This document shows, in pieces, positions 36,032 to 59,381 of a DNA stretch of 64,000 nt. Location of the stretch: positions 1-64,000 of the forward strand of contig JAJQGJ010000022.1 in the NCBI GenBank assembly GCA_021200565.1, written 5' to 3'. Position 1 is the stretch's first letter. Every line of letters starts with the position of its first letter. A program made the position numbers and the translations under genes. Source of the DNA: Oscillospiraceae bacterium. GTDB lineage: Bacteria > Bacillota > Clostridia > Oscillospirales > Ruminococcaceae. Below the pieces are notes generated by a model that saw only the letters and a list, made by a program, of their open reading frames with translations, was not told the origin of the DNA and ran no database searches.

Positions 36032-36044
36032 AAAAAATTCCTCC

Positions 36045-36224
36045 TTAGGTCGTACAAAGGAGGAAAATATAGATAAAAAGTCCTCCGCTGCACTTGTTAA
36101 ATAGTGTCGGAGGTTTGATGTGGGCACCTGAGCTCCCGGGGACCTCGAAAAAATTCCGAGCCGGAAACCAGTACCCCCCGCAATGATTTTTGTGGTTAAG
36201 CATTATTATGCCCTTCCACCACAT
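36045..36224 (-). CDS. Leader ORF upstream of the surface protein, speculative
   Basis: 59 codons from ATG 36224, at the predicted transcription start, to TAA 36045, which overlaps the ribosome site of the surface protein gene. It begins MWWKGIIMLNHKNHCGGYW; the CGG codons come from the G6 run at 36174-36179. Leaderless translation would be needed. It may be a chance open frame. Confidence 0.2.
   Translation of the reverse strand: MWWKGIIMLNHKNHCGGYWFPARNFFEVPGSSGAHIKPPTLFNKCSGGLFIYIFLLCTT
36076..36115 (-). terminator. Leader hairpin, possible attenuator
   Basis: CCTCCG (36113-36108) pairs with CGGAGG (36087-36082), followed by ACTTTTTAT on the minus strand. It lies between the promoter and the surface protein start. 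Two further leader hairpins, TGTGGT/ACCACA and CTCG/CGAG, precede it. Confidence 0.5.
36174..36179 (-). repeat. G6 tract in the surface-protein leader
   Basis: GGGGGG followed by TACTG on the minus strand, flanked by TTGC. The same arrangement (TTGC, G7, TACTG) occurs at 51953-51959. Confidence 0.8.
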
Positions 36225-36230
36225 GTAAAC

Positions 36231-36259
36231 ATTATAATCCCCCCGCTCGCAGTTGTCAA
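36231..36259 (-). promoter_or_regulatory. Surface-protein promoter with G6 tract in the spacer
   Basis: TTGACA (36259-36254), 17 bp, TATAAT (36236-36231). The spacer contains a homopolymer of six G (36244-36239). Gain or loss of one G would move the spacer to 18 or 16 bp and change promoter strength, as in known phase-variable genes. Confidence 0.75.
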
Positions 36260-36327
36260 GAGTTTTTTCATGGGGAATGAAAAAATTTTTGAAAAAGTTC
36301 CGATGTGGGCAATTTCAAGCCGGAGGG

Positions 36328-37536
36328 TCAGAAGATTTTGTACTTCTTCAACAATGCAATCCGCTCCGACGCCACATCGTAGCTCTCCGCCATCACGGAC
36401 ACCTTCTTGCCACTTTTGAGGTATCTCCCGACTCTCTTGAACCACTCTGCGGGTAGCATGTATGGCTTGTCCTTCAGATACGGTCTCCAGGAGGTCCACA
36501 TCTTCCAGGACGGGAAAATCATTCGCCAGATGGCGGTGGCTTTGCTACTTCCGCCGTTGGTGATTGCCATGTTGGTGTAGCGGGCGGTTTCGGAGGCGGT
36601 CTCAGTGACACTGCCGAAAATGCCGGTTTTAAGCATGTCTTCAATCAAAGCTTCGGGCGAGGTGGGAGTCCTCCCCAACGGCAAATTGAAGCCGAGGTAC
36701 TGATTTCCGACGGCAATCAGGTCTACGAGGTAGTTGTCTGCCCTCACCTGCTCCAGCTTGTCCCAGATATATGTCCAATCGATTCTTTCGTAATATTTTT
36801 CCATGTAGAGGAGCACGTCCATCGCCATTCGGATGCCCGCACCGGTGCTCGTGAAATGCTTGAACATGTGAAGCGTGAGGAAGAGGAATTCGTCGGTTGG
36901 ATGCATGACACGAATTTGGGTGTCAAGTATCTCCACATACTCGGTTCTGGCGAAAACGTCCCTGAACCAATCGTTCATTTCGGAAAGCAAATCGTTCGCT
37001 CTGCCAAGCGGGTTGAGGTGAAGCTCGATTGCAAGACCAGCTTCACGATTTATGAAAGTAACCTCCTGGAGCACTTCTGAGTGAGTCTCAGAGGTCGCTT
37101 CTCTTTCATAACCGCATTGTTCCAAAACCGTGGCAACCCTTTGGAAATTTGCCTCGTCAACAAGCAAATCCTCATCCCCTGAAGCCCTGAAATCCTGCCC
37201 GTCTTTATAGAGAGAACGGCAGACAATGCCTTTCAGAACTATCGGCGGTTCGCCGGCTTCGATGAGGGCACGATATAGGTTCAAGAACGCATCCGTCTTC
37301 TGAATCTGGCGGGACATCACGGATGTGGCTTTGATGAACATGTCGGGGTGGGATTCGTCGTATTCTGAGAAGGTGTCGTACTGAGCTGCGGAGTTGTATA
37401 CGAATGGTAGAAGGTTTTGCTTGGCGGAGATTGAGAGGATTTCGGACCAATCGGGCGTGACTAAGGAAGACAGCTGCGATGATGGGTGCAGGGTGTCTTT
37501 TAGGAGGGTTAGGAATTGGTTCTCTTGGGTTGTCAT
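36328..37536 (-). CDS. Nucleotidyltransferase-fold family protein (PF14907-like)
   Basis: 402 aa. 'PIVLKGIVCRSLYKDGQDFR' followed by ASGDEDLLVDE has the Asp-x-Asp pattern of nucleotidyltransferase-fold proteins, and 'LHMFKHFTSTGAGIRMAMD' is typical of the uncharacterised nucleotidyltransferase family found in surface-polysaccharide and peptide-modification loci. Start ATG 37536 (or GTG 37551). Last gene of the minus-strand polysaccharide run. Substrate unknown. Confidence 0.75.
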   Translation of the reverse strand: MTTQENQFLTLLKDTLHPSSQLSSLVTPDWSEILSISAKQNLLPFVYNSAAQYDTFSEYDESHPDMFIKATSVMSRQIQKTDAFLNLYRALIEAGEPPIVLKGIVCRSLYKDGQDFRASGDEDLLVDEANFQRVATVLEQCGYEREATSETHSEVLQEVTFINREAGLAIELHLNPLGRANDLLSEMNDWFRDVFARTEYVEILDTQIRVMHPTDEFLFLTLHMFKHFTSTGAGIRMAMDVLLYMEKYYERIDWTYIWDKLEQVRADNYLVDLIAVGNQYLGFNLPLGRTPTSPEALIEDMLKTGIFGSVTETASETARYTNMAITNGGSSKATAIWRMIFPSWKMWTSWRPYLKDKPYMLPAEWFKRVGRYLKSGKKVSVMAESYDVASERIALLKKYKIF

Positions 37537-37566
37537 TTCGTCACGCTTCACCTCTTTCTATTGTAT

Positions 37567-38586
37567 CTAACCATTCTTTGACGAGATTTTTAAGCTCAAA
37601 AGATCATAAAGTTTCCTATAGACAAACACTAGTGCAAAAGTACAAGCCAGTACCAAGCCAGCGTAGAGCAAGCTACTATATTCAATAACAGGAGTAAACA
37701 AATTCAGAAAAATCGTTTGAAACAGGAATACTTCAAAGCTATTGTGACCAAGCCATTCTAAAAGGCGGGAATGGAATTTCCTGCAACCAGTAATAAGGTA
37801 GCAGAAGATTGCAAACAAGGCACAGGCTATAATCATGAAGAATGCCCGATAACTCTGAGCTGTTTGTATAAATCCAGAGGCAAAAAGAAACACACCGCCA
37901 AAAGCTAATAGTGCTACAGCGCACTTGCCATAGCCGTATTTAATTTTATCTTTCACCTGTGGCAATAACATCCCTATCGGATAACACAGCACAGAATTGT
38001 AGTACCACACCGATTTATCCAGAGCGTAAAAAGCACCAATACACACTAATGCGGCTGAGAACGCAAGGACATAATAGATTACAGTATTCTTTTCAATAAA
38101 TCTATTTAAGAGCCAGTGAATAACAAAGCAAATAAAAATCACTTTCGGGAACCAATTAACCAGTCCCGGATTTGACATTGTCAGGAGATCAACTATAATA
38201 TCGCCGAATTTTGGAATACTATCGGAGTCAAATATAACCAACGATAAGAAGTAAAGGACATAGCACACCAAGAATGGAATATACAGCTTAGAAAGCTTTC
38301 TTCCCAACCACTTGGTACTCCTTCCGTTTCGCTTCAAAGAAAGCTCATTTCCATACCCAGAAATCAAGAAGAAAACGCCACAAGACAAATAGCCAAACGC
38401 ACTTATAAAGTAATGATATACACTTAAATTGTTTCCTATATGGTGGAGAACGATCAACAGAGCACAGATTCCCTGAAAAACCGATGTCGACTGTCTATCG
38501 AGTACCCCCCCACGCACCTTCTCACTGGTGGTCAGAATACTCAGTATAACAACGGCAACCAATGCATAGCACAAAATCAGATACAT
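37567..38586 (-). CDS. Membrane acyltransferase (acyltransferase-3 family)
   Basis: 339 aa, about ten membrane helices. The family opening 'LDRQSTSVFQGICALLIVLH' followed by HIGN contains the catalytic-type His, and 'SCGVFFLISGYGNELSLKRN' follows. It transfers acetyl or similar groups to sugars of the exported polysaccharide. Start ATG 38586 after AAGGTG. A G7 tract (38505-38511) encodes Gly-Gly-Val at the N-terminal edge of the domain; the frame is intact. Confidence 0.88.
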   Translation of the reverse strand: MYLILCYALVAVVILSILTTSEKVRGGVLDRQSTSVFQGICALLIVLHHIGNNLSVYHYFISAFGYLSCGVFFLISGYGNELSLKRNGRSTKWLGRKLSKLYIPFLVCYVLYFLSLVIFDSDSIPKFGDIIVDLLTMSNPGLVNWFPKVIFICFVIHWLLNRFIEKNTVIYYVLAFSAALVCIGAFYALDKSVWYYNSVLCYPIGMLLPQVKDKIKYGYGKCAVALLAFGGVFLFASGFIQTAQSYRAFFMIIACALFAIFCYLITGCRKFHSRLLEWLGHNSFEVFLFQTIFLNLFTPVIEYSSLLYAGLVLACTFALVFVYRKLYDLLSLKISSKNG

Positions 38587-38612
38587 ATTTTTCACCTTTT
38601 CTGAATCACAAA

Positions 38613-39754
38613 TCAATTCTTCGTGATAACTCTTTTAATTTTACGCAGACATCTGACACCAGTGCGATAGGCAGTGCCTATAAAGCTGAAATATCTACAG
38701 TTGTAATACTTGTGCCTGTCTTCTTTAGTTAACTGCTCCATGTTTAAACGTTCATGAGCTAGCCTGTCAAAGTAGACTTGCGTTCTCCAGTCTATTGCTT
38801 TGAATTCGTTTCTCTTAATGCACTCACATAGAGATTCTTCCAAGCCTTGCCTCAGAACTGTAAACTCCATATCACCAATTATATCTTTTAATTTAGAACC
38901 ATCATATATTCGGCTTATTCCCCTGGAGTACTTGATCTGTGGCACTCGTCCCAGTTTCTTTGCAGTTTCTAAAGACTCACATTCTGAAAAATACTTGATA
39001 GTATTGCTAGTCGCTTTCTTAAAGACATCAGAATATATTCCGCTACTTCCGCCCATGTAACAGCATTTGAAGAAGTAATGTGTACCATCTGACCTATGGC
39101 TTTTGGATTATTGATAAGTTTAGCCATCGCCATGGCTACATCTCTTCCAGAAGTCATGGTCGCTTTCACACTTTGAATATCTTTCGGGAAAACAACGCTA
39201 TTACCACATAAAGCTCTGAACAGCCATTCCTCTTTCTCGCTTATACCAAGCTGAAGTCTTTCTGGTCCATAAGTTATGCCCGGTCGCACGATTGTATAGT
39301 TGCTCTTCCCGGATGCATAAAGTATATCTTCTTGTCTCGCTTTAGCCAATGCATATTCATCGGTCTTCAGATATTCGGAATCATCGCAAACATCCAGTAG
39401 TCTTGGTGAAGATTCGGTCAACGGGTGTTTCGATTCAGCATATACACGAGCCGAACTCAAATAGATATATTGTTTGGTAGAACGCAAAAATAAATCTACC
39501 CGCTCAGAGAACTCTGGTGCCGTATACCTCATAAAATCAACGATAACGTCAAAATCACCGTGACTGATTAGATTCGATAAGAAATCTAAATCCTTCGCAT
39601 CGCCCTTTATGAACTTAACTCTTTCGCTATTTCGCTCTTTTCGACTGGTCACAGTAATTGCAAAATTATCGTCATAAGCTAAAATATCGCATAACTGTGT
39701 TCCCATAACACCAGTTCCGCCAAGCAATAAAACGGAGCATTTGCTTTCAGACAT
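38613..39754 (-). pseudogene. NAD-dependent epimerase/dehydratase, single-base frameshift
   Basis: Extended SDR enzyme. The first part (from ATG 39754, ribosome site CAGGAGGT) has VLLLGGTGVMG, the Tyr-x3-Lys-like region 'YALAKARQEDILYASG', and PGITYGP. The C-terminal part continues in another frame: restoring one base near 39038-39039 joins TWAEVAE to IYSDVFKKATSNT and gives an uninterrupted protein of about 380 aa. It would act on a nucleotide sugar. The break may be a real mutation or an assembly error; both halves are otherwise well conserved. Confidence 0.75.
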
Positions 39755-39778
39755 AGGTACCTCCTGCATAGTAAAAGC

Positions 39779-41518
39779 CTACTTTCCAAACACTTTCTTC
39801 ACAGCTTCAACGCTCTTCTCTCCGAGGAGCTTTTTGACTGTGCCCTTAACTTGACCAGTGGTCGATATTTCAAAATTACAGATAGTCTCCAGTGCTTTTG
39901 CCTCATCTTCTGTTTCAGTGAACACTTCAAATACTATAGGCTTATCGGTAACTTTATCTGAGACAAACTCGTTGACGGACTGTGAGAACTCCTCTTTGCT
40001 GTTAGCACTCAAATATTTGAAGCCTAAATCCTCGGCATAATGTTTCAGCAATACAGGAGACTGGTCGCCGAAGTGTCCGGCTGCTGCCATATATTTATCT
40101 GCATCCTCGCCGAACATCGTACAGGGGTGTTCATAATTCCTGAATTCAATGCCACGACCATTGTTTATAACCATAAGTCTTACGTTGTTTCCGACGTGCC
40201 TGTTTCCAAGCGCATTCATATCGTAGAAGAAAGACAAATCTCCGATAACAGCAAAATACAATCTGTCTTTATGTGCTAATGAAGAGCCAATCATTGAGGA
40301 AAGAACACCATCAATTCCAAAGCCACCAGTGTTGGAATAACAGGTGATAGATTTGTCTCTTTCAAAGAAATTCCAGCACCTCAATGTGTTAAGGATGCCT
40401 AAATACAAGGTGGAGTTTTTCGGCAGCTTACTAAGTGTATTCTGAGCAACCCAAAGATTTGAAAACGGGAGATCTGGGACTTTTTCTGCAAGACGATTGT
40501 ATTCGTTACTCCATTCATCATAAAACGGTGTGGGACTTTCGCTTTCGGCGACACTCACATAATGTTCAAAGAAAGATTCTTCTTCCATTTCAAAAACATA
40601 TTCGAGCTTTTTGAACGTGTCCCGGACTTCTCCATCAGGATTAACTCTCCACACCTTTTCACAAGCCATACTTATGTATGAGCCACTAACTTCGCCAATA
40701 TGAATTAAGGTAGTTATTGGAGCGATAGACGGGTTGTACTTATGTTGTCTTAGTATAAGACTTGGCATTACTCTGTATTTTCCGGGATAGTTACTTGTTT
40801 GATCGCAAAATACAGCAGCATCATATTTCTCGCAAAATTTATCGACGACTTCCGTTAGATGCTTGTCCCATTTCTTGTGTGCACCCACAAAAATTCCGAC
40901 CCTGCCAGCTTTTAGCTCAGGAAAACCGTCTTTGTATCCAATTCTTCTGATAACACGAACATCGGGCAAGGTCTTAACTGAAAAATCATTAGAGACCGTC
41001 GTCTCAAGGTTGATATGAACAGGACCACCGCCATCTCGTCTCAGCTCAAGAAGTGCATTATTCAGCATGACGTTATTCGCCCATTCATCTTTCTGGCAAC
41101 GAACAGCCGGCACCTGAACACTCAGCTTGACAATATCATTCATCTGTGTACGTCTATCAATAATCTGAGGAATCAGCTGTCCAATCTCACCCGGATGTGT
41201 CATAGAAGTGATGGCAAGCACAGGAAGCCTTCTGTAATATGCCTCTGTTAATCCAGAAAGATAGTTCCTTGATGCGGTTGCGCCTGTACAGCTCAGTGCT
41301 ACTGGTTCACCAGATTCTGCTGCCAGTCCGCAAGCCATATATGCTGCCGACCGTTCATCGACACTCGAATAAAGTTCAAAATAGTCATCGCATTGCAAAC
41401 TTGCTACAACGCCCATATTTTTCATTCCTGGACTTACAATAACCTTTTTTACCCCATGCGCTTTCATCAGTGCTACCAGCATCTGAATACTTTTTTCTGA
41501 CGAATAATAATTGTCCAT
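39779..41518 (-). CDS. MenD-like thiamine-diphosphate enzyme, paralogue 1
   Basis: 579 aa, three-domain ThDP-enzyme architecture. The N-terminal part has the catalytic-type Glu region 'SSVDERSAAYMACGLAAESG'; the C-terminal cofactor-binding motif is IGDLSFFYDMNALGNRH...NN, with GDL as in MenD, not GDG. It forms C-C bonds after decarboxylation of a 2-keto acid in known relatives. In a polysaccharide locus it could build a branched or acyl-modified sugar or an acid substituent (inference). It lies 21 nt after its paralogue. Confidence 0.8.
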   Translation of the reverse strand: MDNYYSSEKSIQMLVALMKAHGVKKVIVSPGMKNMGVVASLQCDDYFELYSSVDERSAAYMACGLAAESGEPVALSCTGATASRNYLSGLTEAYYRRLPVLAITSMTHPGEIGQLIPQIIDRRTQMNDIVKLSVQVPAVRCQKDEWANNVMLNNALLELRRDGGGPVHINLETTVSNDFSVKTLPDVRVIRRIGYKDGFPELKAGRVGIFVGAHKKWDKHLTEVVDKFCEKYDAAVFCDQTSNYPGKYRVMPSLILRQHKYNPSIAPITTLIHIGEVSGSYISMACEKVWRVNPDGEVRDTFKKLEYVFEMEEESFFEHYVSVAESESPTPFYDEWSNEYNRLAEKVPDLPFSNLWVAQNTLSKLPKNSTLYLGILNTLRCWNFFERDKSITCYSNTGGFGIDGVLSSMIGSSLAHKDRLYFAVIGDLSFFYDMNALGNRHVGNNVRLMVINNGRGIEFRNYEHPCTMFGEDADKYMAAAGHFGDQSPVLLKHYAEDLGFKYLSANSKEEFSQSVNEFVSDKVTDKPIVFEVFTETEDEAKALETICNFEISTTGQVKGTVKKLLGEKSVEAVKKVFGK

Positions 41519-41539
41519 ATTCGCACCTCTTGTATAGAT

Positions 41540-43306
41540 TTATTTTCTGTGCAAGAGATTTTTCACAATCTGAGTTCCTTTCTCTCCAAGGATGCCCTTA
41601 ACTTGTTGCTTTAACTGTGAGCTCTTGCTCCCATCAGTAACCAACTCTCTCATTATTTTAAAGGCAGCGCATTCATTATCATCCTCTGTAAAAATTTCAA
41701 ATAACATAGGGTTAGTGATTTCAGGCGAAACAAATCTCTTATACTGCTCTTCAAATGATTCTTTACTATCAGCAGATATATACTCAAATCCAAGAGATTG
41801 TACATAGTTTCTTATTACGCCTGATTCTTTTCCCTTATAATGTCCACCTGCAGCAATGAAGGCATTACAGTTGTACCCCCCCAGACGGCGATCCAACGCA
41901 TTGCCTTGCTTGAATATATTACCTCCATTGTTGTTTATAATTAGTACTCTATAATTATTTCCAACATGGCGGTTGCCGAGAGAATTCATATCGTAGAAGA
42001 AAGTTAAATCTCCAAGCGTGCAGAAGCAAATCTGATTTGGGTGCATAAGAGAAACTCCTATCGAAGTCGAAAGGGCACCATCTATTCCTCTACAACCCAT
42101 ATTACTATCAGCATGCACAGTTTCAGGCAGCTCAAAGCCAGACCACACTCTGATAGAATTGCTGACGCCGATATGTATTACTGAATTGCTCGGCAAAGAC
42201 GGCGCAATCCGAGAAGCAACATAGTAATATGAAAATGGTAATTCAGGGATACTCTTGTATACCTGATCATAACATGCCTTGCATTCATTCAAGTAAGAAG
42301 TTTTGGGCGCAACAACATTCTCGGATGAGGTATATGCTCTGAAGAAATCCAAATCACTCATCTTAAATACGGCTGTAAGATTTCTAAACGGATCCCGTAA
42401 TTCTCCATCTTCACTTATACGCCATGTCTGTTCAGCTTTTTTCATGCGTTCAGTTGTAGCTTCATCAGCGGCTTCTTCCCCAAAATGAATTACAAGCTTA
42501 ATGTTGTTGAAAACATCCCAGCTGCACTTCTGCATTGCAAACAGATTAGCATGAACCGCATATTTCCCATAATACTTACTGGAATGATCGCAGAAGACTA
42601 CTGCATCATTACGCGCACAAAATTCGTCAACCATAGCAGTTAATTCGTTGCTCCACACTTTATGTGATCCAACAAAAATTGCTATCTTTCCATCTGGTAA
42701 TTCCGGAAGCTTATCTCCCTGAACATAGCCATTTATAATACGCACTTCTGGGAGCGAAGGCTCATTAAAATCAAAAGCTCCCGACGGACCTGGCATATTG
42801 ATATGAACAGGTCCGCAGCCATCATATTTCAAAGCCAATATCGCCTTATTGATTTTAATCTGAGCATCCCAGAAATCGTCTTCATCCTTTATTACCGGAA
42901 GATTGACCTTGACTCGAATACTATCCACTGGCGAAACGCTGCGGTCAATAACTTGTGGTCTGAGATGTCCAACTGTAGAGTAGCCATGGTTTCCTGTGAT
43001 TGCAAGAATCGGAAGCTTTCTATGATAAGCCTCTGTTAATCCCGGCAGATAATCTCTTGATGCTGTCGCTTCTGTGCATATCAGTACAACAGGTTCACCC
43101 GTCTCTGCTGCCATTCCGCAAGCCATATAAGCAGCACCTCGTTCATCTATGCAAGAATACATCTCAAAAGAGCCATCGTGCTGCATACTTGCTATTAAGC
43201 AGACATCCATGTAACCTGGTGAAGCTATTACCCTCTTAATCCCATGAGCTTTCAAAATCGCAACAAGGGTGCGAGCCATTAAGTCACTTGCATACTCAAA
43301 ATCCAT
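41540..43306 (-). CDS. MenD-like thiamine-diphosphate enzyme, paralogue 2
   Basis: 588 aa from ATG 43306 (AAAGGAG upstream; a longer in-frame ORF to 43465 overlaps the flippase gene and is unlikely). Same layout as paralogue 1: SCIDERGAAYMACGMAAETG near residue 45 and 'LGDLTFFYDMNSLGNRHVGN' near 450. A G7 tract (41876-41882) encodes Leu-Gly-Gly-Tyr in a region that differs from paralogue 1. Two such enzymes may form a heteromer or use different keto acids. No other menaquinone gene is present, so it is not the menaquinone pathway. Confidence 0.8.
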   Translation of the reverse strand: MDFEYASDLMARTLVAILKAHGIKRVIASPGYMDVCLIASMQHDGSFEMYSCIDERGAAYMACGMAAETGEPVVLICTEATASRDYLPGLTEAYHRKLPILAITGNHGYSTVGHLRPQVIDRSVSPVDSIRVKVNLPVIKDEDDFWDAQIKINKAILALKYDGCGPVHINMPGPSGAFDFNEPSLPEVRIINGYVQGDKLPELPDGKIAIFVGSHKVWSNELTAMVDEFCARNDAVVFCDHSSKYYGKYAVHANLFAMQKCSWDVFNNIKLVIHFGEEAADEATTERMKKAEQTWRISEDGELRDPFRNLTAVFKMSDLDFFRAYTSSENVVAPKTSYLNECKACYDQVYKSIPELPFSYYYVASRIAPSLPSNSVIHIGVSNSIRVWSGFELPETVHADSNMGCRGIDGALSTSIGVSLMHPNQICFCTLGDLTFFYDMNSLGNRHVGNNYRVLIINNNGGNIFKQGNALDRRLGGYNCNAFIAAGGHYKGKESGVIRNYVQSLGFEYISADSKESFEEQYKRFVSPEITNPMLFEIFTEDDNECAAFKIMRELVTDGSKSSQLKQQVKGILGEKGTQIVKNLLHRK

Positions 43307-43358
43307 TTCAACATATCTCCTTTGATTTATCATACATAAATGTAAAATTAGAATTACA

Positions 43359-44915
43359 TCAGCTTTGTCTCTTAAGCTTTTTGAACATACCCATGCAAGT
43401 ATCAACCAAATACCTGTTCTCTTTCGTTTTCGAGAAGAAAAGCATAAACAAAGCGTTCGGGACAATTATACATAGAATTGCTCTGAATACCAGTGTCAGT
43501 ATGCCTGATTCGATCGTCACCGCATTTGCTATAAGGTAAGTAACTGTTGCATCAAATATGATTACAATCGCATAAATTCCAAAGCGCATAAGGTATCTTT
43601 TTACATTCAGTCGGAACATACATTTATTGATATTGTATACCAACCATGGGAAAGCTATAAACAATATCGAGGCGATGGTAGATATAACTATGCCATATAA
43701 ACCTATGAATTGGACGAGAATCAAATTCAGAGTTAAGTTCACAATAGCTGCAGTCAAAGGTCTGAACCTGTCTTCCTTCCAGATACCACCGGCATCTTTG
43801 AACTGAATCATAGGTCGAGATATTTCCTCAGCAAACAAATAAAGGGCAAACAAGATTACGAAGCTGAAATCTAACATATACTCTTCGCCAACCCATAGCT
43901 TCATAAATGGCTGGTATAAGCAAACTAAGCTGGTACAGCAAAAATTAAGTGCCATAAAATTGATATGGTTAATGTTAAAAAGCAGCTGTCTGTTTTCTTC
44001 TTCTCCTCTGACAATAAGACTGTTGCCTATCCCCGCTGTGCAAGCACTGAAGAATATGGTGAAGAAAGCCATTATTGAGGATACGATATAATAGTAGTTC
44101 TGATAAATTGCAACAAGCTCCAAGCCTATGAACGCAGAAATTACGATTGTGTCAGCTGAGTTGTTGATAACCCCGCCAACCTTTGCAGTGAACAGGTCTC
44201 TGACCTTTCGCATGATGGCTTTGCGTTCTTCTTTCGGGAGCCTTCCTTCCGGCTTATACTGAGGATAGAATTTCTTTGAGGCAATCGCAGTAACGATATT
44301 GAGCAAGATCTGCCCGAATATATTTATAGCTAAATAGAGATAGTAATTCTTGAATGTCAGTAAAGCTACTATTTGCAGCGCATAAGTAGTAAAACTCGTA
44401 AATACTGTAATCGTATTAACAATGTCATTTCTCTGATGGGCTGTAAACAACGAATTCCTATAGGCAAAGAGCCAATAGGAAAGCACTGTAGATGCCAGAT
44501 TCATCAGGTAGATGACGTAGATATTTATATCACTAGGAACATCGCCACTGATCAGCTTAGGTAGAAATGGCAAAAGAATCAAGCCAAGTCCAAGAACTAT
44601 CAGTCCTATGATCCTGTAGTATACTTTATACAGGTTCATCAGCTGGCAGATCTTCTCGTGGTCATCTTCTGCTATAGGCTTGTACATACTGAAAACAAGT
44701 GCAGAAGAAACGCCCAACTCTGCCAGATTCAGTACTTGCAGTATTGACGTGAACAGGCTGTTCAAACCAAGATAATCTATGCCAAGTGTTCTTATGAATA
44801 TCGTTCTGATTATGAACGGAACCAGAATCTGAAATATCTTAAGAATTACTCCCGTAAACGTTCCAGCTATTGCGTTCCGCTTTCTGTCAATCTTCATACT
44901 ATCGATAATCTCCAT
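43359..44915 (-). CDS. Polysaccharide flippase (Wzx/RfbX type)
   Basis: 518 aa with 12-14 membrane helices. The opening 'AGTFTGVILKIFQILVPFII' and RTLGIDYLGLNSLFTSIL are typical of MATE-like oligosaccharide flippases. It moves undecaprenyl-linked repeat units across the membrane. Together with the Wzy-like polymerase at 47158 it indicates Wzx/Wzy-dependent assembly. Start ATG 44915; an alternative ATG 44897 gives an equally plausible N-terminus. Confidence 0.9.
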   Translation of the reverse strand: MEIIDSMKIDRKRNAIAGTFTGVILKIFQILVPFIIRTIFIRTLGIDYLGLNSLFTSILQVLNLAELGVSSALVFSMYKPIAEDDHEKICQLMNLYKVYYRIIGLIVLGLGLILLPFLPKLISGDVPSDINIYVIYLMNLASTVLSYWLFAYRNSLFTAHQRNDIVNTITVFTSFTTYALQIVALLTFKNYYLYLAINIFGQILLNIVTAIASKKFYPQYKPEGRLPKEERKAIMRKVRDLFTAKVGGVINNSADTIVISAFIGLELVAIYQNYYYIVSSIMAFFTIFFSACTAGIGNSLIVRGEEENRQLLFNINHINFMALNFCCTSLVCLYQPFMKLWVGEEYMLDFSFVILFALYLFAEEISRPMIQFKDAGGIWKEDRFRPLTAAIVNLTLNLILVQFIGLYGIVISTIASILFIAFPWLVYNINKCMFRLNVKRYLMRFGIYAIVIIFDATVTYLIANAVTIESGILTLVFRAILCIIVPNALFMLFFSKTKENRYLVDTCMGMFKKLKRQS

Positions 44916-44948
44916 TCACTGCTACAGGATGACATTATAGTCATCCTG

Positions 44949-46169: not shown

Positions 46170-46180
46170 TAAAATCCTCC

Positions 46181-47083: not shown

Positions 47084-47157
47084 GGGATTCTCCTTGTAAA
47101 ATGGAACTTACATAATTCAGAGGCCGTAAACTTACATCGACATATAGCTTGAAGTGT

Positions 47158-49663: not shown

Positions 49664-49718
49664 ACTTTTCTCATCACCATTCTAAATATTATCAAACCGT
49701 TTTCAAGGCTTCTACTAT

Positions 49719-50540: not shown

Positions 50541-50637
50541 TTTTTCACTTCCAAATCTAATGGTGTCCGGAATCACATAAGTGGCAGAAAAGTAACCTTT
50601 CATAAAAAATCCGTGTCATTATAGGTGCGCACTCTGA

Positions 50638-51543
50638 TTACCAATAACTCCCGCCCTCAACCTTTTGAATCTCTGGCGGTTTTTCATTATCCGATGGTCT
50701 TATCCACGCATCATTATAGAATTTTGATATAACAGGGTGCTCATCCCATCTCTTACCTTTCATACCGAACAGAATCTGTGTCGCGCCGGACATTTGAATT
50801 GCAGCCTTTCCTCTCTGCTTTATATAGGCGCATAATGGTAATCCATAGGCGCCGGCTCCAACTATTGCCACATCAAAATCCTTATCATCTACCTGCTTCT
50901 TCATCGAATCAAGTGCTTCAAACCAATTACTAAACTCGGTCTTTCCACCAGCGTTCGATTGCACAGCTCTTATGTATTCGACGGACTTGAACTCTGGGAG
51001 GACCTCTTTATCCTGCCAGATGTCGTTCCGCCTGTCTAATTGCTTTGAAATGCTATCTACGAAAGGATGTATTACAAGGACTTTCTTTCCTGCAAGTGAG
51101 CGTGACCAAGGCGTTGAATAGTAATACGGTTCGATTGCTCTGCTTGGGACGAGTAGAACATTCTTGCAGTATTCCTTAATTGCCTGCTTTTCTCCTGACA
51201 CTTCCCATACGCCGAGAACGTCACAGTCCTTCATGGCTTCCATATACACTTCACAAAATTTATTTAGAGTGTCTATGTCATTCGGAAAGATGCCAGCTGC
51301 ATACAGAGCCTGTTCTTTCTCTTTATCGCTATATGGAGTTTGTTGCATGTACTTAGAAACGAGATGCATCTCCACAGCTCCGAATCTTCCAACTATAAAC
51401 GGCTGATCCTGATTTAGCAAAGAAGCTATCTTTTCGTTTCCGGCTTCTTCAGACAGCAGGTTCATGCCTGCATAATCAAATCTAAGTCTTAATGCACGAT
51501 ATGTCTGAACCAGTTTCTTTTTGATGATGTTGTCGTTGTCCAC
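50638..51543 (-). CDS. Putative GT-D-fold glycosyltransferase-like protein, copy 1
   Basis: 301 aa from GTG 51543 (GGAGG 7 nt upstream, and the N-terminus then matches copy 2: DNDN). 'PFIVGRFGAVEMHLVSKYMQ' resembles the nucleotide-sugar site (GxFGxxE) of GT-D/DUF1792 proteins. A Rossmann-like half follows: KKVLVIHPF and 'DFDVAIVGAGAYGLPLCAYI'. The end is the conserved KVEGGSYW. Common in capsule loci but uncharacterised; the sugar is unknown. Confidence 0.65.
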   Translation of the reverse strand: MDNDNIIKKKLVQTYRALRLRFDYAGMNLLSEEAGNEKIASLLNQDQPFIVGRFGAVEMHLVSKYMQQTPYSDKEKEQALYAAGIFPNDIDTLNKFCEVYMEAMKDCDVLGVWEVSGEKQAIKEYCKNVLLVPSRAIEPYYYSTPWSRSLAGKKVLVIHPFVDSISKQLDRRNDIWQDKEVLPEFKSVEYIRAVQSNAGGKTEFSNWFEALDSMKKQVDDKDFDVAIVGAGAYGLPLCAYIKQRGKAAIQMSGATQILFGMKGKRWDEHPVISKFYNDAWIRPSDNEKPPEIQKVEGGSYW

Positions 51544-51587
51544 TTTAATTCCTCCGAATGGAGACAATTAAAGCAGTCTATATACGC

Positions 51588-52492
51588 TTACCAGTAGCTA
51601 CCACCCTCCACTTTTTGCTTTTGTGGAGGCGTTTCGCTTTCATTTGGTCGAACCCAATATTCGTTGTAGAGGCTTGATATAAACGGATGACTGTCCCACC
51701 TCTTGCCTTTTATCCCGAACAGGATTTGTGTAGCTCCTGACATCTGTATTGCCTGAGAGCCTTTCTGCTTGCAGTATGCCGCTAATGGCAATCCATAAGC
51801 TCCGGCTCCGATAATTGCAACGTCAAAGTCAACCTGGTCAATCTGCTTTTTCATACTGTCCAAGGCATCAAACCATGACGAGAATTCAGACTCTACACCT
51901 GCGCTTGTCTGTACCGCCTTAATTGTCAGTAGTTCCAACTTTTCAGGCAGTACCCCCCCGCAATTAAAAAGCAGGGTGCGTCTATCAAATTGTTGTCTTA
52001 TTGTTTCTGTGAATGGATGTATTACCAGTAGTCTCTTGCCTTCGAGATGGCTTGACCACGGGGTATCGAAATAATAGGCTCGAGTGCATGGAGCTCCGTA
52101 AACTCAGCATTATTGCAGTACTTATGTACGACCTGGCTTTCTGCTCCGACTCCCCATAGGGCAATCAAATCAGCTTGTCCCATACACTCTATGTACAGCT
52201 CGCAACACTTTTTTAAGCTCTCATCGTCATTAGAGAAAACGCCAGACAACGTCTTGATTTCATCCTTGATTTTCTCTGAAAATGTACCAGACTTCAGATA
52301 CTCTCCAATGCAGCGCATCTCTGTAGCACCGCCTCTGGCAACAAGGAACGGCGTGTTCGCATCTAATTGGTTAGAAATCCACTGATTTCCGTCCTCGTCA
52401 CTCATTATCGTGAGATCCTTGTAATCACTGTGGAACTTCGCGTTTTTGATTTTCTGCTTTATCTTTTTTACTATTGCATTATCATTATCCAT
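51588..52492 (-). pseudogene. Putative GT-D-fold protein, copy 2, frameshifted
   Basis: Paralogue of the neighbouring gene. The first 156 codons (ATG 52492) match copy 1, then the frame breaks near 52077-52079: adding one base to the CC(n) codon restores EPYYFDTPWSSHLEGKRLLV and keeps the frame open to 51588, ending KVEGGSYW like copy 1. Full length would be about 301 aa. Inside lies a G7 tract (51953-51959) encoding Cys-Gly-Gly-Val where copy 1 has Asp-Lys-Glu-Val. Tandem duplication with later decay, contingency, or an assembly error. Confidence 0.75.
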
Positions 52493-52493
52493 A

Positions 52494-53603
52494 TCACGTA
52501 GCTCCCATCGTTTTACTCATAGCCACAGCTGTGCTTTTCCATGTAAAATTATCTGCAATCCGCTTATGCGCTTCTTTGGAAACGTCTTTTTTCATACAAC
52601 ACTTCTCTATTACTGTGCTATTACTATCTACCAGATACCCAGACACTCCATCCTCAATGATAAAATCCGGTCCAGGGGCGTGCCAGGCGACAACCTTACA
52701 GCCATAGTACATTGCCTCAAGGATTGCCATTCCAAAGATTTCCTGCTGGTTCAGGTTTATAAAGCAATCGGCGAAACGGTAGAGCTCCCAGATGTCGCTG
52801 TTGGGGATTTTCCCGATTTGCGTGACGACATCGGTCAGAGTTGCGCTCTTTATCTTCTCGTCCACGGCTTCCTTCAGCGGACCTGTTCCAACCATGAGGA
52901 GTCTGTAGCTCGAATCCTGCTGGTGCAGTTGGGAGAAGATTTCGACCATCCTGAGCGGTTGTTTTTCCTCTATCAGGCGACCTATGAACAAGAGCACTTT
53001 ATCTTCTGGCTTGAAGCCGTATTTGAGCTTCAGCTCGGTTTTGTCAGCTTCTTCGTAGTTCTGGTGGAGGAGGCTCAAATCCAGCCCGACCGGCGTTACC
53101 GTGATATCGTTCACGCCCATGTTGCGGAGGTTCCGCTCCACCGTCGGTGTCTTCACAAAACAGTGACATTTTTTGTACACATTGAGATTTCTCTTGAAGA
53201 GTGAATCCATGATGAATTTCTTTAGCTTGCTGGTGCTGTGGCTTTCGAGCACACCTATGTACGGAAACAGCTTCACGCCGTTTTTCTGCGACCATTTGTA
53301 AACTTTCGGGACGCAAATCTGCGTGTCAGAGAAGAAAACTATCGCATCCAGTGTCTTGTCCAGAACTTCAACATCAATCAAGCCGTTGATTCCGTAGCTC
53401 TTCGACGGAATCATCTTGAGCGTTGTGTTGTGACAGCCAACGACTTTTTCCTCGGTATGCTTCTGATCCGCCGGCACCAGCTTGTAAATAACTATCTCGT
53501 CCACGAGCTTGTCCAGCTCTTTCGCCAAGCCGATTTCCTGGGCGTTGTAAAAGCCCTTTTGACCAAAATTCCCGATGCTGGTTATCAGCAAGCCTACTCG
53601 CAT
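52494..53603 (-). CDS. Glycosyltransferase family 4, paralogue A
   Basis: 369 aa. Opens MRVGLLITSIGNFGQKGFYN, with 'KVLLFIGRLIEEKQPLRMVE' and donor-site NLNQQEIFGMAILEAMYYGC, then KVVAWHAPGPDFIIEDGVSG. Retaining GT-B transferase. About as long as, and clearly related to, the gene at 54144-55309. No G tract. It ends one base before copy 2 of the GT-D pair begins. Confidence 0.9.
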   Translation of the reverse strand: MRVGLLITSIGNFGQKGFYNAQEIGLAKELDKLVDEIVIYKLVPADQKHTEEKVVGCHNTTLKMIPSKSYGINGLIDVEVLDKTLDAIVFFSDTQICVPKVYKWSQKNGVKLFPYIGVLESHSTSKLKKFIMDSLFKRNLNVYKKCHCFVKTPTVERNLRNMGVNDITVTPVGLDLSLLHQNYEEADKTELKLKYGFKPEDKVLLFIGRLIEEKQPLRMVEIFSQLHQQDSSYRLLMVGTGPLKEAVDEKIKSATLTDVVTQIGKIPNSDIWELYRFADCFINLNQQEIFGMAILEAMYYGCKVVAWHAPGPDFIIEDGVSGYLVDSNSTVIEKCCMKKDVSKEAHKRIADNFTWKSTAVAMSKTMGAT

Positions 53604-53607
53604 CTTC

Positions 53608-54147
53608 TCACCCTTGTCTCATGCCGTAATATTTTTTCTCATGCTCCACAATCTGCTCCGGCGTGAATCTCATCTTGACAATCCTTGCCGGATTTCCTGC
53701 AACGATAGAATACGGCTCAACGTCTTTCAGAACCACGCTTCCGGCGGCTACTATCGAGCCCCTGCCTATCTTCACACCGCTTACGATTATGGAGCCGTAA
53801 CCAATCCACACGTCGTTTTCTATCTCAATTTTCAAACCTTTGCCCTTGAAGTTGTAATTTGCATCACGAATCTGAGGGCTATCCTTAATGCTTGTCCCGA
53901 CCTGAGTGTAATCGTGGTCATACTTCCCGATGAGACCGATATTGTTGCCCAGGAGAACGTCGTCCTTGATTATGATGTCGGTCTCAAGAGTGCAGTACTT
54001 GCCTATGTAGACGTTGTTGCCGATGGTCATTTCAGTCGGGGCGTAGAAAACCGTGCCTCTTCCGAATGTCGTGTTGTTGCCGATGTGAATGTTTCTGTGC
54101 CTCAAAAGCAATGCCTTGCACAGCAGGCTTTTTATCCTCCTGCTCAT
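53608..54147 (-). CDS. Hexapeptide-repeat (LbH) acetyltransferase
   Basis: 179 aa left-handed beta-helix. Repeats such as IHIGNNTTFGRGTVF, MTIGNNVYIGKYCTL and 'IENDVWIGYGSIIVSGVKIG' followed by RGSIVAAGSVV. It O-acetylates a sugar from acetyl-CoA. The ATG lies in an ATGA overlap with the end of the upstream glycosyltransferase (54144-54147), so its translation depends on that gene reading through its G7 tract. Confidence 0.9.
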   Translation of the reverse strand: MSRRIKSLLCKALLLRHRNIHIGNNTTFGRGTVFYAPTEMTIGNNVYIGKYCTLETDIIIKDDVLLGNNIGLIGKYDHDYTQVGTSIKDSPQIRDANYNFKGKGLKIEIENDVWIGYGSIIVSGVKIGRGSIVAAGSVVLKDVEPYSIVAGNPARIVKMRFTPEQIVEHEKKYYGMRQG

Positions 54148-55309
54148 GCCGCCACGCTTTCGGGGATGTAGACATTACGTAACTGCCTGTGGGCAGTTAC
54201 CCCCCCACGCTGAGCAGCTATTATCAATACAGAAGAAGCTGTTTTATCCCATGTGAAGTCATTTACTATCCTATTGTGAGCATTAGTGCCTATGTCTGGT
54301 GCTCTCTTTTCTATTGCTTCTATCAAAGAATCTTCATCAGAAACAAGGAAACCACTGACGCCGTCTTGAATTATGTAATCAGGACCTGGTGCGTGCCATG
54401 CAACTACTTTTACTTTGTAGTACATAGCTTCAAGCAGTACCATACCAAATATTTCTTGTCTATTCAGATTTACAAAAGCTGAGGCAATTCTGTACAGTTC
54501 CCATATTTGATTGTTGGGAATCGACTCAAAGTACCTAACGTAAGAATTTAACTCGTTTTCTTCTATCAAAGCTTGCAACGGCTCTTTTAGTTCGCCTTTG
54601 CCGACAATAATCAGTCTGTATGAATCGTCTTTTTTGTATAACCGTTGGAAATACTTAATAAGCTCTAACGGATGCTTTTCTTCTACAAGTCTTCCAATAA
54701 ACAGAATTATCTTTTCATCCGTACCATACCCATACTTTTTCCTAAGACTTACCTGACTGGTTTGCTCAAAATCACTATTAAGCAACTCCAAATCTATACC
54801 AACTGGTGCAAACACGCTATTCTGTACACCACGCAAGCTCAGCCTATCCCTGACATCCTCGTTTTTAACCAGACACGTTACTTTTTTATAGACCGCTACA
54901 TTACGTCTGAACAGCGAGTTCATTACGAACCGAATTACCTTGTTTGTACTGTGGCTTTCTATTACGCCTATGTAGGGAATGAACACCACGCTATTTTTCT
55001 TGCACCACCGATATATTTCAGGAACTGATAACTGTGTATCCGCAAAGTATACCAAGGCATCTACATCTGGATTCAAAATCCTTGTATCTACAAGTCCGTT
55101 TATACCAAGGCTTTTGGTGTGATGATAATGAACCGCCAAGTTCCCACTTGTCTCATCTTCAGGAAGTGGCTCATCTTCGCCCAGCAACTTGTACACACTA
55201 ACCGAATGTCCACGCTTTGCCAGACATTTCGCAAGACCAATCTCCTGAGAGTTATAAAAGCTTTTTTGCCGAAATTGTTTATCATGGAGACAAGAATGGT
55301 AATTTTCAT
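54144..55309 (-). pseudogene. Glycosyltransferase family 4, paralogue B, frameshifted at an A6 tract
   Basis: True start ATG 55309 (MKITILVSMINNFGKK) overlaps the upstream stop (ATGA), with AAAGGAG before it. At the A6 run 55262-55267 the frame breaks; one more A gives NNFGKKSFYNSQEIGLAKC, matching paralogue A (GNFGQKGFYNAQEIGLAK). The rest is intact: 'EKIILFIGRLVEEKHPLELI', NLNRQEIFGMVLLEAMYY. A G7 tract (54200-54206) encodes Gly-Gly-Val near the end and leads to an 18-residue tail absent from paralogue A. Confidence 0.75.
54179..54200 (-). other. Hairpin directly after a G7 tract
   Basis: GTAACTGCC and GGCAGTTAC form a perfect 9-bp stem with a 4-nt loop, and the stem begins with the last G of the G7 run. 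A slippery homopolymer followed at once by a hairpin can favour polymerase or ribosome slippage. Confidence 0.45.
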
Positions 55310-56559
55310 GCCGCAACTCCTTTCGGAGTGCGCAATTCAAGCAAATCAAAGCAATTAGAGGCAGTTACCCCCCCACACTCAATCAAATCAACATGGTTAT
55401 ATGTATTCTCTAACATTTTTATGTTTTTCCTCTCAGAATACTTGTCGTCAAATATTGCCTTTATCTTTTCGGAACTGATTGCCTCATTCTCGGCAACCTC
55501 AACCGTTCTCCTCAAATCCTCGACTGAGTCAAACTCAAACTTCCAGCCTGTTACTCCCTCTTCAATCAAATCCCCGACATTCCCAATGTCCGAACCGATT
55601 ACAGGCGTTCCCACTGAATACGCCTCCAGTATCGTCATCGGAAAGCCTTCATACCACTGCGTCGGCAGAATCAGGGCTTTTGCATTTGCAATCAGTTTCT
55701 TGGCTTCTGCATTAGGTACGAAACCGAGCATTTCTATATTCAGTTTCGGGTTGACTTTCAAGAAATCGTGGCACCAATCTTCAAGCGGTCCTGTGCCACA
55801 GACGACCAGCTTTGGGGCTTGCCCACCCATCTGTTTCCATGCCTCAAAGAGGATTTTTATGCCTTTCAGCTCGTCCAGTCTGCCGACGTAGATGAACTGA
55901 TTTTGGCGATTTTCATAGGGGATTATGTCTACGTCCGCCTCAACGAAATTCGGCTTTACATAAACTTTCTCAGGCTTAATTTGCTTCAGCTGTAGTAGCT
56001 TCTGCTTGTTGAACTCCGTCAAACATATATAATTTATCTTTCCGTAAGTTCCGAGTGCACGATGAATTTTTGTTGTGATAACACACATCAAAGTTTGAAG
56101 CTTACTGCCTCTATAGCAGGAGTGCTTTACAGCACATCCAAGCCCATGTTCAACGCAGTCCTCGCAGATATGTCCGTCTCTATAGAAAGTCGCACCTGGA
56201 CACAGCAGGCGAAAATTATGTACGGTCTGCACTACGGGCACTTTGCAAGAAAATGCGGCATAGTAAACCGATGGGCTGATGAGATTCAGCGTGTTGTGAA
56301 CGTGAACGATGTCTATATGCTCATCTTTGATGATTTTCTTGACTTCTCGGTGGGTTTTCGGGTTGAAAACTGTGGTAAACGGGAGCAGGAGCTTCTGGGC
56401 TTTGGACATCGTTTTCAGCTCGGAGTTGTTGCGGGTGTAGAGGATGACTTCGTGACCGTGGTCTTCGAGAAGCTTTTTCTCGTTGGCAACTACGGTGTCC
56501 TCGCCACCGGGGATCTGATAGTAGTTGTGGACTAGTAGGATTTTTTGCTTATTAGCCAT
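55306..56559 (-). CDS. Glycosyltransferase family 4
   Basis: 417 aa. 'LLVHNYYQIPGGEDTVVANE', DIVHVHNTLNLISPSVYYAA, a Cys-rich insert (ICEDCVEHGLGCAVKHSC) and donor-site 'ALILPTQWYEGFPMTILEAY'. Retaining GT-B transferase of the capsule type with the Cys cluster typical of one Firmicutes subgroup. A G7 tract (55368-55374) near the 3' end encodes Cys-Gly-Gly-Val and is followed by an extra 18-residue tail; with G6 translation would stop at once (TAA). Confidence 0.9.
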   Translation of the reverse strand: MANKQKILLVHNYYQIPGGEDTVVANEKKLLEDHGHEVILYTRNNSELKTMSKAQKLLLPFTTVFNPKTHREVKKIIKDEHIDIVHVHNTLNLISPSVYYAAFSCKVPVVQTVHNFRLLCPGATFYRDGHICEDCVEHGLGCAVKHSCYRGSKLQTLMCVITTKIHRALGTYGKINYICLTEFNKQKLLQLKQIKPEKVYVKPNFVEADVDIIPYENRQNQFIYVGRLDELKGIKILFEAWKQMGGQAPKLVVCGTGPLEDWCHDFLKVNPKLNIEMLGFVPNAEAKKLIANAKALILPTQWYEGFPMTILEAYSVGTPVIGSDIGNVGDLIEEGVTGWKFEFDSVEDLRRTVEVAENEAISSEKIKAIFDDKYSERKNIKMLENTYNHVDLIECGGVTASNCFDLLELRTPKGVAA

Positions 56560-56564
56560 GCCTT

Positions 56565-57338
56565 CTATTTTCCTCTAACCATAGCATTCCAAATAAACGG
56601 AATATTTGTATGCCAATACTTCATGAACAGCCTCTTCGGCTCCTGAATAAGCCTATAGACCCACTCCAGATTGTGCTTCTGCATCCACTCTGGTGCTCGG
56701 TTTATATTGCCGGCAAAGTAGTCGAAACCAGCTCCTACGCCAACCATGAGACCATTTACTTTTCCCAAGCGCTCATACATCCAATGCTCTTGTTTCGGGC
56801 ACGAAAGTCCAACCCAGACGAAATCCGGCTGAAACTCGTTGATTCGGTCGACTATGAGCTTGTCCTCTTCCGCAGTCATCGCTCTGAACGGCGGGCTGTA
56901 CATTCCTACAATGTCGAGATTCGGGTAGGCATCTAACAATCTCTCCCGAAGCTTCGACAGCGTAGAATCCGTCGAACCATAGAAGAACATTTTGTAGTTC
57001 TTCTCAGCACTTAATTTAAAAATCTCGCCCATATAAGACGGTCCAGTGGTTCTCTGCATTTGCTTGTAGCCACGATGACGACCTACCGTTGCAAGCGGTC
57101 CACCGTCGGGCATACAGAGTGCGGAGCTGTTCAGGATTTCGCAGAATTCGGGGTCGTTGTAGGCGGTGACGTCTGAGTAGACGTTCACTACGCTAAAGTA
57201 GTCGCCCTTTAGGTTTTCGAGATTCTCAGCGGTGTATTTCAGAAGCCAATCCATGTCGATGGCGGCGATGTCTACACCCAAGATTTTGCAGGTGGGGATT
57301 TGAGATTTGTCGATTTTTCTGTTATATGTACTTGGCAT
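56565..57338 (-). CDS. WecB/TagA/CpsF-family glycosyltransferase
   Basis: 257 aa from ATG 57338. 'FSVVNVYSDVTAYNDPEFCE', CMPDGGPLATVGR, 'FYGSTDSTLSKLRERL', 'VWVGLSCPKQEHWMYERLGK' and GVGAGFDYFAGNINRAPEWM are all family signatures. It adds ManNAc-type (GT26) sugars to a lipid-linked acceptor, often the second step of a repeat unit. A 72-nt longer frame upstream (57410) has no ribosome site. Confidence 0.93.
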   Translation of the reverse strand: MPSTYNRKIDKSQIPTCKILGVDIAAIDMDWLLKYTAENLENLKGDYFSVVNVYSDVTAYNDPEFCEILNSSALCMPDGGPLATVGRHRGYKQMQRTTGPSYMGEIFKLSAEKNYKMFFYGSTDSTLSKLRERLLDAYPNLDIVGMYSPPFRAMTAEEDKLIVDRINEFQPDFVWVGLSCPKQEHWMYERLGKVNGLMVGVGAGFDYFAGNINRAPEWMQKHNLEWVYRLIQEPKRLFMKYWHTNIPFIWNAMVRGK

Positions 57339-57363
57339 GTTCAACCCGCCGATACTGATTAAT

Positions 57364-57947
57364 TCATACTTTTCGAATAAAATGAGCCGGATTCCCTGCC
57401 CATATCTCACCGTCTGGGATACTCTTAGTCACAACTGAGCCGGCGCCAACTATCGATTTCTCTCCAACTGTAACGCCTTTCAAAATAATTGTGTGTGCAC
57501 CTATGAACGCTCCATTTCCGACTGCGACGGGACGAGTTACCCCCCACACTCAGCCATCCGTCTATCATAATCAAGCCAGTGAAAGTCGCTGTCATATATC
57601 TTCACTCCGCCTCCGATGAGGACGTTATCGCCAATGGTAATTGACTCACAAGCAAAGATTGTGGAGTTAGAGATGCCACAGTTATCGCCTATGACTATCT
57701 TTCCGTTGCCTTTTGCGAAGAGAACGGTTCTCGTATCTCCGCCGATTGGATTTGAATTCTTCCCAGAATTTATCCGCACATTATTTCCGATTTTGATGCC
57801 ATCGGGAGTGTTGGACACAAGGTGAATACGACCATTGATTTGCAAATTCTCGCCCGTCTTAACGTGACGATATTTCAGCATCGCTCTGTTATAGATACTG
57901 TTTGGTAGAGATAAAATCGAGAGGATTATCTTTTTAATCTTGTTCAA
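57364..57947 (-). pseudogene. LbH acetyltransferase, frameshifted at a G6 tract
   Basis: WcaF-like hexapeptide acetyltransferase. ATG 57947; 'GENLQINGRIHLVSNTPDGI' and 'ISNSTIFACESITIGDNVLI' up to YDRRMAECGG, where TAA follows a run of six G (57540-57545). With seven G the frame continues VTRPVAVGNGAFIGAHTII to the true end at 57364 (about 195 aa). So it is off in this sequence and would be on with one extra G. It probably acetylates a repeat-unit sugar. Confidence 0.85.
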
Positions 57948-58597: not shown

Positions 58598-58659
58598 CTA
58601 TAAAAAGGGAACCATGCGCAGAAAACCACAAGATATAGACATAAAACCGCATTTAGGCA

Positions 58660-59280: not shown

Positions 59281-59286
59281 AAAAAA

Positions 59287-59368: not shown

Positions 59369-59381
59369 GGCTCTTTTCCTC

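Follow-up and report, generated by a model that had tools for sequence, protein, structure and literature searches.

A 64,000-nucleotide stretch of an Oscillospiraceae bacterium of the gut, seen in metagenomes alone (positions 1 to 64,000 of contig JAJQGJ010000022.1, assembly GCA_021200565.1), the whole of which is here called the window, carries a series of homopolymeric tracts of at least six G on the coding strand of its polysaccharide genes, most of them followed by TA. These tracts may be read as one class of contingency loci, in which slipped-strand mispairing switches surface genes, and we give this reading a probability of about three in four. The initial annotation of the window had proposed the coordinated switching of capsule genes by such tracts, and its contingency part is probably right for the tracts located inside genes, given that reading frames are broken there, tract lengths have changed between relatives, and a single enzyme type can be recognized on both sides of a tract. 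The coordination, on the other hand, is unsupported, since the tracts are separate and the measured data link no lengths, which makes independent switching the plain expectation. The restriction of the tracts to the polysaccharide locus also fails, as similar tracts are found in leaders, promoters, a second glycan locus, and many genomes of the genus.

Under the proposed mechanism, slipped-strand mispairing at replication would alter the length of a tract, leading to the random switching of surface genes, with every tract acting independently. At the tracts inside genes (38505, 41876, and 57540), the length would set the reading frame, while at those near gene ends (54200 and 55368) it would probably act through translational coupling, by deciding whether translation terminates at the ATGA with which the next gene starts. 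The leader tract at 36174 would probably alter an RNA structure, and the promoter tract at 36239 is the weakest case. We infer that slippage occurs within one population and that it affects expression.

Tracts of the window and the TA flank

Eight runs of at least six C or G are present in the window, all of which lie within 36174-57545, with none elsewhere (Table 1). All eight are runs of C on the + strand (C6 at 36174, 36239, and 57540, C7 at the five other positions), i.e., of G on the strand of the surrounding genes. The next bases are TA in seven of the eight tracts, the exception being the run at 36239, which is followed by AT, while TA follows none of the six runs of exactly five G found in the window. 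Read in the frame that is open at their position, all five G7 tracts encode either Gly-Gly-Val or Gly-Gly-Tyr, and the flanking sequence GTGGGGGGGTAACTGCC occurs twice in the window, at the tracts 54200 and 55368. In its account of the positions, the absence of other runs from the rest of the window, the TA flank, the encoded residues, and the shared flanks, the initial annotation was borne out in full.

Table 1. Homopolymeric tracts of the window and the stop/start overlaps that follow two of them.
Feature	Position	Strand	Context
G6-TA tract	36174..36179	-	Leader of gene 32090-36127 (1345 aa, secreted-protein-like start); leader homologues have G6-G8
G6 run, without TA	36239..36244	-	Between TTGACA 36254-36259 and TATAAT 36231-36236, spacer 17; promoter-like, before gene 32090-36127
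G7-TA tract	38505..38511	-	Close to the 5' end of an acyltransferase gene, 37567-38616 (PF01757); reading frame open
G7-TA tract	41876..41882	-	Within gene 41540-43465 for a thiamine-pyrophosphate enzyme (PF02776/PF02775); reading frame open
G7-TA tract	51953..51959	-	Between pieces 52022-52492 and 51588-51938, similar to the adjoining GT-D-like gene 50638-51567
G7-TA tract	54200..54206	-	Near the 3' end of glycosyltransferase gene 54144-55349; 8-bp hairpin next
G7-TA tract	55368..55374	-	Near the 3' end of glycosyltransferase gene 55306-56559
G6-TA tract	57540..57545	-	Hexapeptide acyltransferase frame 57537-57947 stops there; remainder 57367-57540 downstream in another frame
ATGA stop/start overlap	54144..54147	-	3' of tract 54200; TGA of the current phase overlaps the ATG with which the next gene (53608-54147) begins
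ATGA stop/ATG overlap	55306..55309	-	3' of tract 55368; stop of the current phase overlaps the ATG 55307-55309

The number of runs alone is unsurprising, as it is close to the expectation of a first-order Markov model, which predicts 6.8 runs of C and 3.3 runs of G of at least six (8 and 0 observed), and approximately 2.1 runs of at least seven (5 observed). The TA flank and the clustering of the tracts are, by contrast, beyond chance. The genome of the window has 2.18 Mb in 24 contigs, of which the window is contig C4, and 5 of its 19 distinct runs of at least seven G are found inside approximately 17 kb, where 0.15 would be expected (P approximately 5e-7, before correcting for the choice of place). 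The window tracts are concentrated in glycan genes, and a listing of genes that carry tracts of this kind returns surface-variable functions, i.e., glycosyltransferases, acyltransferases, and the neighbourhood of a pyruvyl transferase. The gene around the tract 51953 is locally open at the tract and broken elsewhere, near 52.1 kb, and a Pfam search of its two pieces, 52022-52492 and 51588-51938, returned no match.

Further G>=6-TA tracts are located on other contigs of the same genome, including a second glycan locus, the leaders of secreted proteins, and promoters. In this genome, TA follows 35 of the 53 runs of at least six G and 17 of the 19 runs of at least seven, and a comparison of the motif with its reversed control gave 24:32 for exactly five G, 18:0 for six, and 17:0 for at least seven. 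Summed over 31 genomes of the genus, the same ratio was 2850:1946 for five G and 326:121 for six, and in 19 of the genus genomes it was 229:19 for at least seven. The excess of TA sets in at six G in the genome of the window, and the genus as a whole is slightly up already at five. The closest named metagenome-assembled genomes are two assigned to ‘Ruminococcus sp.’ (U_126910 and U_126731), with a PepF that is 95% identical.

The excess of G6-TA is uneven among the genomes of the genus, being 20:0 in G001, 18:0 in G039, and 7:0 in G035, in comparison with 16:14 in G004. Outside the family, a set of 12 genomes from as many families of the order gave 35:39 for the motif of at least seven G. In a wider draw of 197 genomes, the excess was present in some sister genera (10:0 in G166, 6:0 in G211, and 11:3 in G178), absent from others (0:3 in G112, 0:2 in G152, and 0:0 in G138), and sporadic in other families (27:6 in G142, 14:1 in G212, 10:0 in G132, and 13:2 in G023). 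The TA flank looks new and raises the question of why the flank should be TA.

Reading frames and tract length inside genes

The reading frames were compared across 195 tracts of the genus, from loci that were mostly fetched for their tracts, under strict limits of at least 100 codons on both sides, with runs of four and five G from the same DNA as controls; the procedure is mechanical, and some of the frames counted arose by chance. Long frames were out of step across 13 of the 22 G>=6-TA tracts that qualified, as against 36 of 501 runs of four G and 17 of 69 runs of five (Fisher's test, 2e-9 and 0.004, respectively). The tracts are found, in other words, where their length alters the frame, as is the case in contingency loci. 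Looser limits (at least 40 codons upstream and 60 downstream) gave 28 tracts out of frame and 15 in frame, with 200 and 856, respectively, for G4, and as these limits admit chance frames, the strict ones were used. A separate count under other limits pointed in the same direction, with six split and four doubtful cases and six in frame for G6+TA, as against 31, 6, and 359 for G4.

The genome of the window has seven G6-TA tracts at a change of frame, i.e., that at 57540 and those at L012:4493, L021, L034, L035, L036:501, and L036:1282. The two pieces were searched separately against Pfam in five of these split genes, and the downstream piece only in L036:1282 and L021. Both pieces fit a single enzyme type in four of the five, with DUF4422 on both sides of the tract in L012:4493, Acyl_transf_3 on both sides in L036:501, hexapeptide repeats on both sides at 57540 (where the upstream match is below the Pfam cut-off), and the first and second domains of a glycosyltransferase on the two sides in L034. 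In L035, a weak glycosyltransferase match upstream is followed by hexapeptide repeats downstream, and as the pieces differ in type, one enzyme is not shown there. The downstream piece of L036:1282 matched Hexapep, and that of L021 had no family match in the Pfam search. The rule that a G6 tract is never in frame, which holds for all seven of these tracts, was rejected, as tracts in relatives (L167, L169, L174, and L319) are in frame under the loose limits.

A further arrangement was observed at L141 (C17:131217-134867 of the same genome), where the N-terminal part of a glycosyltransferase, 91% like window positions 55306-56559, precedes two C-terminal domains that differ from each other and are read in separate frames. 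A G6-TA tract is located before the first of these domains.

The alignment with relatives, which had been put forward as a check, also supported the contingency reading. The loci fetched from the genome of the window were compared with 20 large stretches of relatives, using one genome per species, which provided 12 comparisons of G>=6-TA tracts, some of them between paralogues. The comparisons cover ten tracts of the genome of the window, of which four are located in genes. Tract length was the same in six of these comparisons and different in six, with no substitutions, while the 47 comparisons of G4 runs included 32 that were the same, none changed in length, and 15 substituted (Fisher's test, 2e-5 for length change and 0.03 for substitution, although the count of substitutions at the tracts is biased downwards, as the stretches were chosen in part for holding tracts). 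A superseded table that contained duplicate loci had given length change in 16 of 49 and substitution in 3 of 49 cases for G6+TA. The capsule region of G002 spans four of the tracts, two of equal length and two of different length, and the two that differ are split at G6 in the genome of the window and are G7 and open in G002. Tract length varies among close relatives, then, while the flanks are kept, which is the behaviour of a contingency locus. Across the loci of the genus, tract lengths range from 6 to 12; longer tracts, of G9-G12, are found in some relatives (G017, G004, G009, and G014, among others) and represent 38 of 197 distinct tracts, while those of the genome of the window are mostly G6-G7.

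Slippage might alternatively take place at the level of the RNA, with either the polymerase or the ribosome slipping, so that a split gene still yields a certain amount of complete product without any change in the length of the DNA. Runs such as G7 are slippery, and hairpins do follow some of the tracts, with perfect stems of at least five pairs being found right after 15% of 34 tracts in the genome of the window and 18% of 77 in its relatives, in comparison with 4% in shuffled sequences. The same count after runs of five G is 9% and 8%, however, so that the enrichment is mild, and the homologues differ in the length of the DNA tract itself. Given that RNA-level slippage also leaves the leader and promoter tracts unaccounted for, we regard it as improbable in comparison with slippage in the DNA. 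A hairpin or REP-like palindromic element as a general part of the motif was dropped for a similar reason, as hairpins also follow the G5 runs, although they do sit in leaders and at some gene ends.

Gene ends, leaders, and promoters

One other group of tracts is located near the ends of genes. In a total of 18 tracts, the upstream frame has 100 codons or more and the tails are shorter than 45 codons in all three downstream phases, which is the arrangement of C-terminal phase variation, i.e., a tract near the 3' end with short alternative tails. A mechanical criterion was applied to these tracts, in which a coupling phase is one whose terminal TGA overlaps the start codon of the next frame, provided that this frame has 60 codons or more. 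Such a phase is present in 9 of the 18 tracts, as against 13 of 163 G4 runs, 2 of 23 G5 runs, and 77 of 809 G3 runs (Fisher's test, 3e-5 against G4 and 2e-5 against G3), and the sole qualifying run of at least six G without TA also has one. The nine are 54200 and 55368 in the window and L164, L183:14277, L188:13251, L287, L289, L292, and L294, and the coupling phase is the current one in four of them and not in the other five.

Termination followed by re-initiation at an overlapping stop and start is an established process. The tracts at 54200 and 55368 would alter only approximately 20 terminal residues of their own gene, and an effect on the gene that follows is the better reading. The pattern of phases suggests that gene-end tracts may be switches of the translational coupling of that gene, which appears to be new. 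A broader claim, in which the gene-end tracts are coupling switches that control the neighbouring enzyme and all the tracts form one mutable element, defined by its motif (G>=6 of the coding strand and then TA), which a genus of uncultured Clostridia has placed in genes, gene junctions, and leaders and which needs the TA for its mutability or recognition, is tentative, and we think it somewhat likelier to be wrong than right.

The tail read in one phase could also be a degradation tag, with tract length setting the stability of the protein rather than coupling. The tag of the transfer-messenger RNA (tmRNA) of this genome is DNNSLELAAA (gene L030:502-853), and five of the nine coupled tails end in AA (54200, 55368, L183:14277, L188:13251, and L292), as does the uncoupled tail of L188:9069. 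Four of the nine coupled tails lack this ending, however, and the bases of the tail may be explained by their second role, as the gap that separates the ribosome-binding site of the next gene from its start codon, so that degradation is the least probable of the alternatives considered here, and coupling is preferred for these tracts.

Not every break in this part of the window involves a run of G. The glycosyltransferase gene that follows the tract 55368 is itself broken near 55255, where its frame, 54144-55349, is interrupted near an A6 run just after the ATG at 55309, and runs of A might also be switching genes here.

Tracts of G6-G8, including that at 36174, precede genes whose starts resemble those of secreted proteins, as judged by eye. 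A search with the part of the leader located 3' of the tract returned 22 rows, all of which have G6-G8 at this place (14 G6, six G7, and two G8), in a set that includes the 12 query leaders, one place twice, and loci fetched in part for their tracts. The paralogues of 36174 have G7 (L007) and G6 (L190). Both GGGGGGTA and CCTCC are invariant in 14 aligned leaders, and the four leaders that were folded are more stable than their shuffled versions (z of -2.7, -3.6, -3.8, and -5.0), with the last hairpin pairing the ribosome-binding site in three of the four. No Rfam family reached its gathering score in ten leader loci. The consensus fold of the 14 leaders has six pairs, none of them with both sides changed, i.e., without covariation, and for this reason a new RNA family is not claimed. 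The leaders, which are presumably transcribed, do nevertheless present a G-repeat of variable length, as in leaders of the RepG type.

In promoters, the pattern TTGAC-N(4-14)-G>=6-TAWAAT has 39 matches in 19 of the 31 genus genomes and none in the reversed control, with spacers of 14 to 19 bp, mostly 15 or 16. A narrower pattern (12 matches, control 0) had missed the cases in which the TA begins the -10 box. The tract thus lies between the -35 and -10 boxes, as in known phase-variable promoters. At L023 (C9:121-124 kb of the genome of the window) and L199 (C8 of the relative G039), blocks that are 93-97% identical are arranged in a different order in relatives and break near G-rich promoters, as though the order of the transcription units in an array of ABC transporters had been reshuffled.

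The occurrence of the TA flank in genes, in leaders, and before -10 boxes, i.e., beyond any coding constraint, would also be compatible with a putative recognition motif, kept for binding by a protein, by an RNA, or by an enzyme that works on DNA, with the change in length being incidental. The retention of the tract in every one of the 22 leader rows, a biased set, points the same way. A motif kept for binding is difficult to reconcile, on the other hand, with lengths that range from 6 to 12, with tracts that break frames, and with the variation of the first bases 5' of the tract, and we consider this explanation unlikely, if marginally less so than the other alternatives to contingency loci.

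A number of points weigh against contingency loci. In one promoter family, a search blind to the tract found ten homologues, of which one has at least six G, four have G5, and five are interrupted, so that an uninterrupted tract is not kept there, and what is kept is a G-rich spacer rather than a pure tract; neither of the two paralogues aligned, L007 and L190, has the run of 36239 at the corresponding place. The candidacy of the promoter tracts as plain contingency tracts is weakened by these homologues. Runs of at least six G without TA were in frame in five cases and out of frame in none, and six genomes of the genus have little or no excess of G6-TA (e.g., 3:4 in G036 and 5:7 in G003). The selection of the compared stretches, already mentioned, belongs here too. 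Tracts of G6-G7 are short for fast slippage, the lengths were read from assemblies, and MutS is above the cut-off in 30 of the 31 genus genomes, so that the loss of that gene is ruled out as the reason for slippage. Finally, three genes of the window are broken away from the G tracts, near 39.0, 52.1, and 55.25 kb, which indicates that decay is also at work in the locus.

These last breaks lend some weight to gene decay or assembly error, in which the split genes would be pseudogenes, or the assemblers would have dropped a G, and all of the genomes are in fact assemblies for which read quality is not given. Breaks at the tracts are nevertheless far commoner than at G4 runs, the 12 tract comparisons (a biased set) are all free of substitution, and many of the tracts are noncoding, and this explanation has only a small chance of being right. 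Slipped-strand mispairing at contingency loci is preferred over it.

Related systems and other repeats

The available portions of the literature describe several comparable systems. In Campylobacter and Neisseria, the contingency loci of the poly-G type involve G homopolymers within and between surface genes and switch the frames of glycan enzymes, features that they share with the tracts described here. The latter differ in being mostly G6-G7, in the TA that comes after almost every longer tract, and in their host, a genus of gut Clostridia. Loci of the Campylobacter and Neisseria type are treated in PMC8355987. In Bifidobacterium breve, PMC9187656 describes, in the portion available, sortase-dependent pilus clusters with G10-G12 at two of them, slippage being measured by deep sequencing, and its authors also mention G tracts in promoter spacers. 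This is likewise a Gram-positive gut commensal, with a surface gene whose reading frame depends on a G tract, while the genomes studied here have tens of shorter tracts each, read from assemblies alone. The survey of homopolymeric tracts in PMC2831843 is also relevant, as far as its available part goes.

C-terminal phase variation in Helicobacter canadensis is reported in the part of PMC2823697 available, where tracts near the 3' end alter just the protein end, and in one case produce a fusion with the next gene. The difference here is that in half of the gene-end tracts one of the phases terminates at the start codon of the next gene, which suggests that it is this gene that is controlled. 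PMC3711429, a survey of frame transitions, sets out how ribosomes terminate and re-initiate where a stop and a start overlap, and in the available text it treats phase variation and coupling as separate classes. For the leaders, the closest parallel is the G-repeat of variable length in the tlpB leader, which affects a glycan gene, as described in the accessible portion of PMC8295292; the leaders described here differ from that of tlpB in preceding secreted proteins and in carrying G6-G8. Among the matches listed by searches of the open-access literature, and within the terms used, there was no account of poly-G contingency loci for this lineage, nor any of a tract controlling translational coupling, although one of the searches was too broad to be informative.

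If the contingency reading is correct, simple-repeat phase variation, which is best known in a few pathogens, would also be a trait of the gut Clostridia, in a genus whose genomes contain as many as some tens of tracts, which could be read from metagenomes. It would also provide a directly testable case of a repeat in one gene governing the adjacent gene by way of translational coupling, and surface genes that seem ‘broken’ when assembled from metagenomes may be genes caught while shut off.

The window also holds a repeat of a different type, a dense array of (GTACA, GCACA or GTTACA)TTTT at 58690-59280, with 14 of the 16 copies of the window in 58401-59400, in comparison with a shuffled mean of 0.03. 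Ten of these 14 copies are on the - strand, and the array sits just upstream of the frame 57968-58531, which we take, by eye, to resemble the C-terminal half of a UDP-sugar dehydrogenase.

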